DNA of 64,000 bases from an uncultured Clostridia bacterium (GTDB lineage Bacteria > Bacillota > Clostridia > Christensenellales > Borkfalkiaceae). A program made the position numbers and the translations under genes. The DNA lies in NCBI GenBank assembly GCA_904419945.1, contig CAJFTM010000004.1, forward strand, positions 1-64,000, written 5' to 3'. The notes under the pieces were generated by a model that saw nothing but the letters and a program-made list of their open reading frames with translations, did no database searches and was not told the DNA's origin. This document shows positions 1-64,000 of the stretch, one piece after another. Positions within the stretch are counted from its first letter, which is position 1. The number at the start of each line of letters is the position of its first letter.

Positions 1-132
1 CAATTCCCGAAGTATTGCCCCGATCTCCAATCGCTTCTCTTCATAGAATACTTTTCGCCTGTATTTCGGGGCAAACACTACATGATACTTGCAATTCCAC
101 TTTGTATGTGCTAAACTTTTTATGTCATCCAT
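1..132 (-). CDS. tnpA: IS200/IS605-family transposase TnpA, N-terminal fragment (cut by window edge)
   Basis: Only the first 44 codons lie in the window; the gene runs off the left edge. The start is an ATG at 132, preceded on the minus strand by a strong AAAGGAGG ribosome site about 8 bases upstream. The protein begins MDDIKSLAHTKWNCKYHVVF and continues with a APKYRRKVFY segment, the diagnostic N-terminus of the small Y1 (HUH) transposases of IS200/IS605 elements. These excise and insert single-stranded DNA. The catalytic HUH motif and tyrosine would lie outside the window, so activity cannot be judged. The AT-rich composition differs from the neighbouring GC-rich genes, which fits a mobile element. 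Confidence 0.9.
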   Translation of the reverse strand, partial: MDDIKSLAHTKWNCKYHVVFAPKYRRKVFYEEKRLEIGAILREL

Positions 133-257
133 TTGGATGTCCTCCTTTTGATTCTTAGTTTGCAACTGCCGGGTCGCAACTCTATTATATCAAAAGGAGT
201 TTTTATTTCAACATTTATCGCTAAAGCTCTTTTCAACCCCGCGACTATCGCGGGGTT
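1..257 (-). mobile_element. Left end of an IS200/IS605-type insertion sequence (partial)
   Basis: The tnpA start is preceded by about 100 AT-rich bases and then a perfect 9-bp hairpin, AACCCCGCG-ACTAT-CGCGGGGTT, at 235-257. IS200/IS605 elements have no terminal inverted repeats; they carry a subterminal hairpin near the left end that the transposase recognises. I infer that the element boundary lies between this hairpin and the terminator of the adjacent glycoside hydrolase gene at 268-302. The exact cleavage site cannot be fixed without the right end. Confidence 0.65.
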
Positions 258-11538: not shown

Positions 11539-12899
11539 GCCTGCTCCCGAAGGACGGCCACTTTGCCGCCTTCCGTACCGAATGTATGCGACGCCCTCTC
11601 GAGGGCGCGCGCTGCGCCTTCTGAAATGCGCTCTCCCGCCAGCGCCACAGGGTAACAGGGAGGCGTGACGCCCGCATTGCGCGCGCACACCCGCCCGACC
11701 GAATGTGCAAACGGGACCCACTCGAAGGGGGCGCGCAGCGCCTCCGCATAGCCGACGGCGCGCTCGGTACAGGCGACGGGCCCGGCGGGCAGCGCCGCAC
11801 TGCGGGGCAGGCGCTCTTCCAACTTTGCCATCCGCTTTGCCAGCCGCGGCAGCGCGCCGCGCGGCGTGAACGGAGAATTATAAAACAGCAGGTGCCGGTC
11901 CGTTTCCAGCTCGGCATAGATCCCCTTTGCCCGCAGCGCCGCGGCCATCTCGTGCGGATACAGCCCCGCCGTGCCGAGATCGGGCGCAAGGACGAGCGTT
12001 TCGGACGGGAAGCAGGCGATGCCCGCGTTGAGCAGCCTTTCCCTTGCCGCCGCGAGATCCGCCCGCACGCGCGCGCAATAGGCAGCTCCCCGCTCCGCCA
12101 TCAGCTTGACGCCGTATTCGACGGACGCCATGACCGGATAGGAGGGGCTGGTCGTGCGGAAGAGATCGAGCCCCTCGCGCACATATACGTGCAGGCGCCT
12201 GTCCCGCCCGCACAGCAGCGCACCCTGCGTGAGGGTAGCCATCGTCTTGTGCGAACCGTCCACCCACAGGTCCGCATATTTGCCCGCGTACCGATCCGAA
12301 GCGGCCGCATCAAACCGCAAAAAGGCACCGTGTGCGCCGTCTACGAGCAGCAGCGCCCCGCGCGCATCGCACGCGCGGCGCAGGGCAGGAAGGTCTGCAC
12401 AGGCGCCGAAATAATCGGGAGAGGTGACAAACACCGCCGCGCCCGGCTCCCTGCCGAGCGCCTCTTCCGCTTGTTTTGCCGAAGGGGGGACAAATACGCC
12501 GCCGCGCGCCGGATTTTCCAGCGGAACGGGGCGGAGTCCGAGCACCGCACAGGCGCTGTACGCGCTTTTATGCGCGTTGCGCGGGAGGATGACCTCGCGC
12601 GCTCCTGCGGCGCGCGCCGCATACAGCATCGCCCAGACGCCCACAGAAGATCCGTCCGTCAGGATCTCGGCAAACGCCGCGCCGAGCAGCTCGGCAATAT
12701 CCTCCTGCGCCCGCCCGATGACGCCGGACCCATCCTCCAAACAGCCGGAAAAGGGCAGCTCGGTGATATCGCAGCGCGCGCCCGCGGAAAGGGCGCGGCA
12801 ACTCCCCTTGTGCCCCGGCATATGGAAGCGCGTCGAGGGACCGGAGCGGTACGCGCGCAGCGCACCGTAAATATGCAGTTTTCGGCGCAGGCGGATCAT
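11535..12899 (-). CDS. Orn/Lys/Arg decarboxylase family PLP enzyme (YaaO/SpeA-like)
   Basis: 454 residues with the aspartate-aminotransferase-like decarboxylase fold. The N-terminal FHMPGHKG motif, LTDGSSVG, VDGAHGAFL (PLP ring stacking/Asp) and DGSHKTM (Schiff-base lysine) are all present. The protein is the short form (about 450-490 residues) found next to tmk in many Bacillota, annotated YaaO in Bacillus; its substrate is usually taken as lysine or arginine, but this is not certain. It lies 21 bases after greA and overlaps tmk by 4, so it belongs to that transcription unit. No clear Shine-Dalgarno is visible before ATG 12899. Confidence 0.85.
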   Translation of the reverse strand: MIRLRRKLHIYGALRAYRSGPSTRFHMPGHKGSCRALSAGARCDITELPFSGCLEDGSGVIGRAQEDIAELLGAAFAEILTDGSSVGVWAMLYAARAAGAREVILPRNAHKSAYSACAVLGLRPVPLENPARGGVFVPPSAKQAEEALGREPGAAVFVTSPDYFGACADLPALRRACDARGALLLVDGAHGAFLRFDAAASDRYAGKYADLWVDGSHKTMATLTQGALLCGRDRRLHVYVREGLDLFRTTSPSYPVMASVEYGVKLMAERGAAYCARVRADLAAARERLLNAGIACFPSETLVLAPDLGTAGLYPHEMAAALRAKGIYAELETDRHLLFYNSPFTPRGALPRLAKRMAKLEERLPRSAALPAGPVACTERAVGYAEALRAPFEWVPFAHSVGRVCARNAGVTPPCYPVALAGERISEGAARALERASHTFGTEGGKVAVLREQA

Positions 12900-53529: not shown

Positions 53530-54020
53530 CACAAAATCTCCGGACCTCTGATTCGCGCGAGCAAAACCGCTTTTTTATAGGGCTCCCAAAAAGTATCGAA
53601 GAACTTTTTGGGAAGAGGAGGAGCCGACGCGCCGAGCCGAACGGGCCGCCCTTGCGGGCCGTTGGCGCCAAGCGGCAAAAATACGTGCGCGAGCAAAACC
53701 ACGCTTTTGCGCGTGAGCGCCTCAGCGGGTGAATGCGGCGCGCGCTCTCAAAGGCGTGCACCTAAAGTGCGCCGCCGAGGGCAGAGCCCTGAATCGGAAA
53801 ATTTTGTTTTGAGCAGTCAAAACAAAATCTCCGAGCCGTTTCTCGAAAAAGGCAAAACCACGCTTTTGCCTTTTTCCCCCAATTTGCCGCAAGGCTCACG
53901 GATGGAGTGAAGGTGCGGCATTGCTAAAAGGCGTGCCCCGAAAGATGCGCACCGAGGGGAAAACCGTTCGGGTTTCCCCTCCCATCTCGAAAAAAGTTTT
54001 ATCAGCTTAAAACTTTTTTT
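53530..54020. repeat. Array of modular palindromic intergenic repeats
   Basis: About 490 bases between asnS and plsX hold at least two copies of a 150-170 base element plus remnants. The modules, in order: (1) hairpin around GCAAAACCACGCTTTTGC (53694-53711; 53846-53875 with a 12-bp stem); (2) AAAGGCGTGC-CC-AAAG-GCGC (53750-53772; 53927-53953); (3) a GAGGG/CCCT or GAGGGGAAAACC/GGTTTCCCCTC hairpin (53777-53790; 53954-53981); (4) a hairpin of ATTTTGTTTTGA/TCAAAACAAAAT type (53795-53833) or a variant (53990-54020). A remnant lies at 53530-53576. An inverted relative is at the right window edge. I see no gene here. Confidence 0.8.
53990..54020 (-). terminator. Terminator downstream of asnS
   Basis: On the minus strand AAAAAAAGTTTTA-AGCTGA-TAAAACTTTTTT. 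It sits 10 bases after the original asnS stop codon and forms the last module of the repeat array. Confidence 0.75.
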
Positions 54021-54030
54021 GAGAACTTTT

Positions 54031-55368
54031 TCAATACTCCAAATTCCCCACCGTTCTCGGGTAGGGCAACACGTCGCGGATGTTGGAGATGCCCGTGAGG
54101 TACATGATCATCCGCTCAAAACCCAGCTAAAAGTCGTAGTCTGCGGGATCGAGCCCGAGCTCCTTCATGCGGGAGAGCAGCACGTCCTCCCGCTCTTCGC
54201 GCTGCGAACCGCCGATCAGCTCGCCGATGCCCGGCACGAGCAGATCCGCCGCGGCGACCGTCTTGCCGTCATCATTGAGGCGCATATAAAAGGCCTTGAT
54301 CTCCTTCGGGTAATCGGTGAGGAAGACGGGCTTTTTATACACCTGCTCGGTCAGGTACCGCTCGTGCTCGCTCTGCAGGTCGCACCCCCAATATACGGGG
54401 AACTCGAACTTGTCCTTCACCTTTTCGAGAATGGAGATCGCCTCGGTATACGTGAGGCGGACAAACTCGTTCCCGGATACGTTCTTCAACCGCTCGATCA
54501 GCCCCTTATCCACAAAATTGTTGAGGAAGGCGATCTCGTCCGGGCACTTTTCCATGACGGAATCGATGACATATTTGACCATCGCCTCTGCGACGTCCAT
54601 ATCCCCCGCGAGGTCACAGAAGGACATTTCCGGCTCGATCATCCAGAACTCCGCCGCATGGCGGGTGGTATTGGAGCGTTCGGCGCGGAAAGTGGGGCCG
54701 AAGGTGTAGACATTCGAAAAGGCCATCGCGAACGGCTCGACGTTGAGCTGACCGGATACGGTCAGGCTCGCCTTTTTGCCGAAGAAATCCTTTTTATAAT
54801 CGACCTCCCCCTTGATCTTGTCCAGATCGAGGGTGGTCACCTGGAACATCGCGCCGGCGCCCTCGCAGTCGCTGCCGGTGATGATGGGGGTATGCACATA
54901 CACGAAGCCGCGCTCGTTGAAAAATTGATGGATGGCAAACGCCGCCTCGCTGCGGATGCGGAACACCGCGCCGAAGGTATTGGTGCGCGGGCGCAGATAG
55001 GCGATCTCGCGCAGGAACTCCATCGAATGCCTCTTTTTTTGCAGCGGGTAATCGGGAGAAGAGGTGCCCATCACGGAGATCTTGCTCGCCTTGACCTCAA
55101 AGGGCTGGCGGTTTTCGGGCGTCAGCACAAGGATCCCCTCGACCACGAGGCTGGCGCCCACGTTCTGGCGGGCGATCTCGTCGTAATTGGCGAGCGTTTC
55201 GCGCTCGAAGACGACCTGACAGTTTTTGAAGCAGCTGCCGTCGTTGAGTTCGATGAAGCCGAATGCCTTGCTGTCTCGCAGGGTGCGCACCCAACCGCTC
55301 AGCGAGACGGCCTGCCCGCCCAGCGCAGCAGCGTCCGCATATAGGGAACGGATCGTAGTTCTTTGCAT
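54031..55368 (-). pseudogene. asnS: Asparaginyl-tRNA synthetase interrupted by an in-frame TAG
   Basis: Codons 1-413 read as a normal class II AsnRS: anticodon-binding OB domain ([20 protein letters not shown]), linker, and motif 2 ([20 protein letters not shown]), to [11 protein letters not shown]. The next codon is TAG (54127-54129). The same frame then continues as [19 protein letters not shown] and [12 protein letters not shown] to TGA at 54031. In intact AsnRS about 16 residues (Tyr-x-Asp-Leu-Arg-x-Tyr-Gly...Gly-Phe-Gly) stand between the two parts; they complete the active site ahead of motif 3. The TAG equals the first two bases of the expected Tyr codon plus the last of a Gly codon, as a clean 45-base deletion would give. 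The protein would lack motif 3 and is probably inactive, unless this is an assembly error. Confidence 0.88.
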
Positions 55369-56902: not shown

Positions 56903-58753
<1,851 letters not shown>

Positions 58754-58804
58754 CTATCTTTCAGGCGCTTTCGCGCCGAAAAAACAAATATATTTTTGCG
58801 CCCG

Positions 58805-59392
58805 TCAGGTCGTGACCTTGACCTGCGCAAAGCGCAGCACCTTGTCTCCCCGCTTATAGCCCTTGAGGAAGACCTCCTTGACATAGCCGGGTTCGACGCC
58901 CTCGGCCGCGGGTTCGCTCATGATCGCCTCGCAGAAGGCGGGGTCAAATTCCTCGTCCTTGGGGTCGATCTCCTCGATGCCCTCCTCCTCCAACAGCTTT
59001 TTGAAGGAGCGCAGCACCAACTCGATGCCCTTTTTGGTCTGCTCGTCGCAAGTGAGCAGGGCGCGCTCGAGATTATCCCCGACGGGAAAGATCTTCAAAA
59101 GCACGTCTGCCTTGCCGTCCAGATAAGCGTTGCGGCGGGTCTGTTCGTTGCGCTTGCGGAAATTATCGAACTCGGCGGCGGAACGCATCCACTTATCTTT
59201 ATAGTCGGCTGCCTCCGCTTTTGCCTTTTCGAGTTCCGCTTTCAGCTTTTCATGCTTGGCGTGATGCTCGTGCTGCGGCTCTGCCTGCGCCGGTTCGGCG
59301 GGCTTTGCCGGTTCGGCGGGCTGCGCCTGTTCTGCCGTTTCCGCGGCAGGTTCCGCGCCCTTTTCGGCGGGTTCCTTGATCTCTTCGCTCAT
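58805..59392 (-). CDS. grpE: Nucleotide exchange factor GrpE
   Basis: 195 residues. An Ala/Glu/Pro-rich N-terminus (about 1-50), long helix (KAEAADYKDKWMRSAAEFDN, FRKRNEQTR) and the beta-wing signature FDPAFCEAIM and GYKRGDKVLRFAQVKV. Releases ADP from DnaK. Two bases after hrcA. A 99-base spacer with a GGCGC/GCGCC hairpin precedes dnaK. Confidence 0.96.
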   Translation of the reverse strand: MSEEIKEPAEKGAEPAAETAEQAQPAEPAKPAEPAQAEPQHEHHAKHEKLKAELEKAKAEAADYKDKWMRSAAEFDNFRKRNEQTRRNAYLDGKADVLLKIFPVGDNLERALLTCDEQTKKGIELVLRSFKKLLEEEGIEEIDPKDEEFDPAFCEAIMSEPAAEGVEPGYVKEVFLKGYKRGDKVLRFAQVKVTT

Positions 59393-63795: not shown

Positions 63796-63803
63796 AACTT
63801 CCC

Positions 63804-64000
63804 CGGAGATTTTGTTTTGAACTGACAAAACAAAATCTTCCGATTTGAGGGGAACCCCGAACGGTTTTCTCTCGGCGGCCGGCTTTCTCGCTTTGCGTGA
63901 TCTTTAAGGGCACGCCTTTTATAAATCGCGCAAATCCTCTCTTTCCGCATAAGCCTTGCGGCAACTTGGGGAAAAAACAAAAGCGTGGTTTTGCCTTTTT
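63804..64000. repeat. Inverted copy of the modular intergenic repeat (cut by window edge)
   Basis: Read on the minus strand it has the same modules in the same order as the 53.5-54.0 kb array: AAAAAGGCAAAACCACGC then TTTTG-TTTTTT (63972-64000), CCCC-AA-TTGCCGCAAGGCT, AAAAGGCGTGCCC-TTAAAGAT, GAGAGAAAACCGTTCGGG then GTTCCCCTC (63847-63873), and the CGGAAGATTTTGTTTTG hairpin (63804-63842). The last hairpin also serves as terminator for the small membrane protein gene. Confidence 0.82.

Follow-up and report, generated by a model that had tools for sequence, protein, structure and literature searches.

A probable family of mobile multi-hairpin intergenic repeats in Candidatus Borkfalkia

Four described systems come closest to the repeat family reported here. 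The BOX elements of Streptococcus, with the organization boxA-boxB-boxC, are modular, structured, intergenic and non-coding; they occur in many copies, lose or multiply their modules, and are regarded as parasitic and non-autonomous (PMC3049150). REP sequences and their BIME composites, in E. coli and Pseudomonas, are extragenic, form inverted composites and often lie 15 nt or less from a stop codon, each being a short palindrome of 20–40 bp with a GTAG or CGTC tag in a host genome that encodes a Y1 (RAYT) transposase. ERIC/bcr1-type repeats (PMC2267715 and general knowledge) are intergenic, ∼120–160 bp long, fold as RNA and are spread clade-wide. MITEs are short, non-coding and mobile, with inverted terminal hairpins (PMC10969869); target-site duplications and a matching transposase also characterize them.

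The element found between asnS and plsX in the window (the whole stretch of 64,000 nucleotides analyzed here) shares these general traits, including the position close past stop codons, but differs from each system. Unlike BOX, it is built of five hairpins, forms inverted dimers and ends flush with gene ends, and no IS-like ends were identified; it has no Rfam match of any kind, and the contrast with BOX is one of description. Unlike REP/BIME, its unit is 180–215 nt long, with conserved hairpin order and loops, no GTAG tag was identified, and no Y1 transposase is linked to its copy number. It is longer than ERIC/bcr1-type repeats, has five separate hairpins and inverted dimers, and occurs in different bacterial groups. 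As in MITEs, terminal inverted repeats are present, with the hairpin P1 bounding tail-to-tail dimers on either side, but no target-site duplication was detected and no related transposase found among the Y1, IS110 and reverse-transcriptase families. The best reading of these comparisons is that the repeat works like BOX, BIME/REP or ERIC, yet does not pass for a REP or a MITE on the features tested. I propose that these are probably multi-hairpin repeats of a lineage-specific family, intergenic, mobile and non-autonomous. The family is new and apparently undescribed: no Rfam family matches the element at gathering score, and no description was found in the open literature, including papers naming Borkfalkia. 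The phage and plasmid collections gave no match to it.

Copies in the window and unit architecture

Both asnS and plsX are encoded on the minus strand, and the region between them contains two tandem copies, spanning 53685–54024 (−), and a remnant. This is the tandem palindromic array that the initial annotation had described, and the inverted recurrence that it placed at the right window edge corresponds to copy C below. Copies were scored with R1, a covariance model of hairpins P3–P5 built from nine seed copies, all from the window's own genome and including copies A and C. The features are as follows.

53845–54024, minus strand: copy A, a complete unit P1–P5 in sense with asnS; R1 match at 53845–53953 (−), 107 bits, E 1.9e-20 (model seed); fold z −4.2
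53985–54024, minus strand: P1 of copy A, an inverted repeat with a 4-bp outer stem TCTC/GAGA, a 12-bp inner stem and the loop AGCTGA
53954–53981, minus strand: P2 of copy A (GAGGGGAAACCCGAACGGTTTTCCCCTC), inverted repeat
53912–53953, minus strand: P3 of copy A, a long stem with apical GGGCACGCC, from R1 positions and fold
53877–53911, minus strand: P4 of copy A (TTCACTCC..GCC..GGC..TTGGGG), from R1 positions and fold
53845–53876, minus strand: P5 of copy A (GAAAAAGGCAAAAGCGTGGTTTTGCCTTTTTC), of the U-tract type, inverted repeat
53685–53834, minus strand: copy B, in tandem with copy A, with P4 and P5 partly fused and a GC-type P5; R1 match at 53685–53777 (−), 41.9 bits, E 4.0e-6; fold z −4.3
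53794–53834, minus strand: P1 of copy B, inverted repeat
53531–53578, minus strand: remnant made of a P1 fragment (ACAAAATCTCCG) and a P5 fragment (GCAAAACCGCTTTTTT), at 53531–53542 and 53555–53578, seen as direct repeats
53579–53650, no strand assigned: portion of a second repeat family, unrelated to the hairpin unit (GGGCTCCCAAAAAG..CTTTTTGGGAAGAGGAGGAGCCG), within the array; the sequence recurs inside copies in relatives
63802–64000, plus strand: copy C, a complete unit cut by the window edge and ending at contig position 64001; R1 match at 63892–64001 (+), 104 bits, E 9.1e-20 (model seed); fold z −4.3
63802–63843, 63847–63873 and from 63892, plus strand: P1, P2 and P3–P5 of copy C

P1 of copy A starts 6 nt past the original asnS stop codon, TGA (54031–54033), and the next copy, D, lies just beyond the window edge, from ∼64016 on. 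Taken singly, copies A, B and C fold 4.2–4.3 standard deviations better than dinucleotide shuffles.

The basic unit is ∼180–215 nt long and consists of five ordered hairpins. The fixed module order noted in the initial annotation is confirmed, but its count of four is one too low, P4 having been missed or merged. Read in sense, P1 is a ∼41-nt hairpin whose outer stem of 4 bp is TCAC/GTGA, TCGC/GCGA, TCGG/CCGA or TCTC/GAGA; its inner stem is long, its loop is often GAGCTGAC, and a pyrimidine is usually bulged out on the 3′ side. P2 has the sequence found in copy A or alternative forms, P3 carries AAGGGCAC[A/G]CCTTT at the apex of a long stem, P4 reads TTCACCC..GCC..GGC..GGG, and P5 is a stem enclosing AAAAG[C/T]G[T/C]G[A/G]TTTT; the unit ends are G[T/C]TC..GA[A/G]C. 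Units frequently form a tail-to-tail inverted dimer of ∼430–450 bp, in which a P1 forms each outer end and the two P5s lie ∼20–30 nt apart in the center. Among 47 neighboring element pairs, 18 are tail-to-tail, half of them with gaps of 21–27 nt, 29 are in tandem, and none is head-to-head. A kissing pseudoknot was also considered, as the consensus of the P3 loop (CAC[A/G]C) is complementary to that of the P5 loop (G[C/T]G[T/C]G); because these pair no better across 147 copies than in shuffled copies, no loop-loop contact is claimed.

The T-rich hairpin ends described earlier proved to be a minority trait: the hairpins are there, but a T-run follows P5 in only about a third of copies (50 of 147), while 83 of the 147 have a GC-type P5 without a U-tract. 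This bears on the idea that the region is an array of ordinary intrinsic terminators, alike by convergence. In many copies, A among them, P5 is a GC stem followed by T, and a terminator scan returned six terminator-like sites where 1.4 were expected. Against this, the five-module order is fixed and the loops are conserved in genomes of several genera, and most P5s lack the T-run; the genome-wide alignment already refutes such an array, which is hardly conceivable. The initial annotation had likewise preferred mobile non-coding repeats, or an RNA element of several hairpins, to a simple terminator. Many copies, their conserved order, strong covariation and presence or absence at orthologous sites bear it out on both counts, and the further copies share the module order, as unrelated terminators would not.

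Other features were observed in and around the array. The asnS gene (window 54026–54160, −) appears broken, with its frame ending at an in-frame TAG (54127–54129). A segment present in relatives (about WYLKLRRYGGTVHSGFG) is missing, and the original C-terminus and stop persist downstream; the break appears to be either an assembly error or a real lesion. The second repeat family, ∼100–160 bp long (GGGCTCCCGAAAATCGCAG..GAGATTTTTGGGAAGAGGAGGAGCCGCCGAGCAAGCC..), lies in P2 or P3 loops or between modules. It was seen at window 53579–53650 and in five loci of relatives (L173 at 2170–2310, L185 at 11900–12060, and L181, L178 and L187), an arrangement that looks as if it inserts into hairpin loops. 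In one relative, short tandem repeats (GGCAAAATAAAAGCAGGCTCCCGCAGCGGG) separate a small conserved gene from plsX (L112, ∼2700–2960).

Spread across genomes

A BLAST search with the region returned 36 pieces across its own genome, with a best non-self E of 2.8e-36, and R1 located 29 places there at E < 0.1. The genome-wide count that had been proposed as a check thus reveals a large family, of which 147 copies could be aligned over several species. The plsX gene groups the host with Candidatus Borkfalkia, at 78–91% identity to named species. R1 finds copies in 19 of 21 Borkfalkia genomes, with 0 to at least 137 copies per genome, and in 21 of the 101 genomes of the family, belonging to four of its 18 genera. 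Within a single genus, copies are lacking in G043 and G609 and number at least 137 in G076, a natural set for finding a mobilizing gene.

Weaker R1 matches occur in a few genomes of two other families, among 248 genomes of the order, and two examples read from these families retain the module order P2, P3, TTCACCC-P4, P5. Multi-copy elements at L366 (∼1430–1590) and L367 (∼1500–1780), from the same two families, show this order too, with the P5 loop AAAAGCGTGGTTTT, and lack the GCAC[A/G]C loop in P3; they are probable distant cousins of the hairpin unit. A class-wide draw of 291 genomes, under stricter filters, gave no R1 match outside the host's own family. Viral carriage was considered and rejected: two short patterns gave single matches in viral contigs, at about chance level, and R1 on 100 viral-contig loci gave one weak match (26.6 bits, E 0.005), on a contig with a P5-like hairpin.

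Conservation of the fold and placement at gene ends

In the alignment of 147 copies, which was fitted to R1 and leans towards the model, 90.2% of cells are standard-paired, against 70.2% in shuffled alignments and 38–59% in slid structures, controls that come nowhere near. Double-sided changes are seen in 29 of the 30 base pairs, and the covariation score is 0.480, compared to 0.154 for shuffles and 0.04–0.11 for slid structures. Since 90% of cells are paired and nearly all pairs have changed on both sides, it is the fold that is conserved, and not the sequence. The inner pairs of P1, which lies outside R1, also switch between G-C and C-G and between A-T and T-A; these P1s were chosen for folding as one hairpin, with the four outer pairs required to be complementary and the inner pairs left free. 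The form under selection would be a single strand, either DNA during movement or RNA once transcribed. In a single case, 2 of ∼230 nt distinguish the orthologous copies of two species that have diverged by 8–9% at fourfold sites, a hint of selection or conversion once the copy had inserted.

In a 381-kb sample drawn from copy-rich contigs of one relative, all 28 clusters lie between the genes called by a simple gene caller, save for one weak 51-codon call inside a cluster; beyond this call, no autonomous version with an open reading frame between the halves was found in the sample. Sense P1s lie at most 16 nt from the upstream stop codon in 43 cases, 17–100 nt in two, and more than 100 nt in 17, the latter mostly second tandem copies; in ∼40 copies P1 begins 1–8 nt past the stop codon. 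Considering both edges of the intergenic regions, P1 lies 0–10 nt from 30 of 58 gene 3′ ends but from only one of 40 gene 5′ ends, counts in which gene starts are approximate and stops are not. At 13 of the 40 gene 5′ ends the distance to P1 is 10–25 nt, leaving room for a ribosome-binding site. The stop codons preceding P1 are TGA in 16 cases, TAA in 15 and TAG in 10 (raw counts).

A unit inserted past a stop codon would form the 3′ UTR of the gene before it. Every ribosome that terminates there would open P1, and roughly one in three P5 hairpins could serve as a terminator. Random insertion combined with selection would not easily produce such flush placement by itself, and this counts against reading the family as mobile repeats. 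An alternative is a 3′-end module used by the host: a domesticated RNA acting in cis, which ends transcripts or adjusts translation termination and mRNA decay and is retained for its usefulness beside stop codons, its spread being a by-product. The onset of P1 just past stop codons, the compensatory change throughout, the nearly unchanged orthologous copy and the U-tracts at P5 are all consistent with this role, as is the report that E. coli REPs 15 nt or less from a stop codon can stall ribosomes (PMC12306157). However, the same site may be filled in one species and empty in its sister, some genomes have no copies at all, antisense copies abut start codons, where a 3′-end role makes no sense, most P5s are GC-type, and modules at one site have been replaced between close species. 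I therefore consider a host module possible but somewhat unlikely. More tentative still, and unlikely in this full form, is the proposal of a mobile element that targets gene 3′ ends for insertion, thereby supplies new folded 3′ UTRs throughout the genome, and persists because selection acts on the RNA fold and not on the sequence.

Gain, loss and the search for a mobilizing enzyme

The reading as mobile repeats draws on comparison of orthologous sites. At the junction of asnS and plsX, 19 genomes, the window's own among them, were called filled and 10 empty; two of these calls (L100 and L108) were made from the element alone, asnS being undetected on the locus, and a third (L109) is a remnant only. 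On a PlsX tree, few branches of which are well supported, the filled and empty labels need at least 10 changes and are no more clustered than shuffled labels. The window's genome and a relative, G028, differ at several orthologous intergenic regions, which hold a copy in one genome and none in the other; for instance, 58705–58805, upstream of a dnaK-like start, is empty here, while in G028 it is filled directly after the stop codon. Comparison of G028 to a closer relative yielded one clean filled/empty site, at which insertion close to the 3′ end of a gene has left the reading frame to stop at a TGA in the P1 loop. At two other sites both genomes carry the element, with differing P1/P2 modules or internal deletions, a pattern in the sequences that suggests recombination among copies. 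After insertion, recombination would thus exchange modules between copies and remove internal parts.

Whole inverted dimers have also dispersed: one pair at different places is 87% identical over ∼450 bp, and another 86% over ∼430 bp. As no copy carries a gene, movement is likely to occur in trans, by some enzyme recognizing the hairpin ends. Transposition is inferred here from gain and loss and not from a mechanism, since neither an enzyme nor a target-site duplication was found, and part of the gain and loss could reflect homologous recombination between copies, or deletion.

The check for target-site duplications gave none: six of 56 flank pairs share at least 5 nt, against a shuffled mean of 7.4. 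This is as expected for Y1 transposases, and a REP/BIME family proper, moved by a Y1 (RAYT) enzyme acting on single-stranded hairpins, would also account for palindromic units in alternating orientation, between genes and close to stop codons. Yet the unit is five hairpins and not a tagged short palindrome, Y1_Tnp is absent from four copy-rich genomes (G064, G067, G085 and G093) while the copy-free G043 has three matches, and the Y1_Tnp in the window's own genome reads as an IS200-type TnpA fragment at a contig end. This explanation is thus very unlikely. Y1/RAYT was rejected as mobilizer on its occurrence, which is unlinked to copy number, and neither IS110 (Transposase_20) nor reverse transcriptase (RVT_1) shows a link either. 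Such absence is weak evidence, as the MAGs are incomplete. The proposal of MITE or REP-like membership is accordingly not upheld by these tests, there being no target-site duplication and no associated Y1/RAYT, IS110 or reverse-transcriptase gene.

In a common gut lineage, this probable mobile family provides hundreds of naturally occurring copies together with matching empty sites, and whether it is a parasite or a regulator at stop codons is directly testable, because filled and empty alleles can be compared. In Borkfalkia genomes, the repeats may also mislead the prediction of terminators and interfere with assembly.

At the start of the window (1–257), a TnpA fragment lies at the contig edge (4–102, −), next to a match to Rfam STnc490 (145–257, −). 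Another Y1_Tnp fragment ends contig C2, and the assembly therefore probably breaks at an IS200-type insertion sequence.
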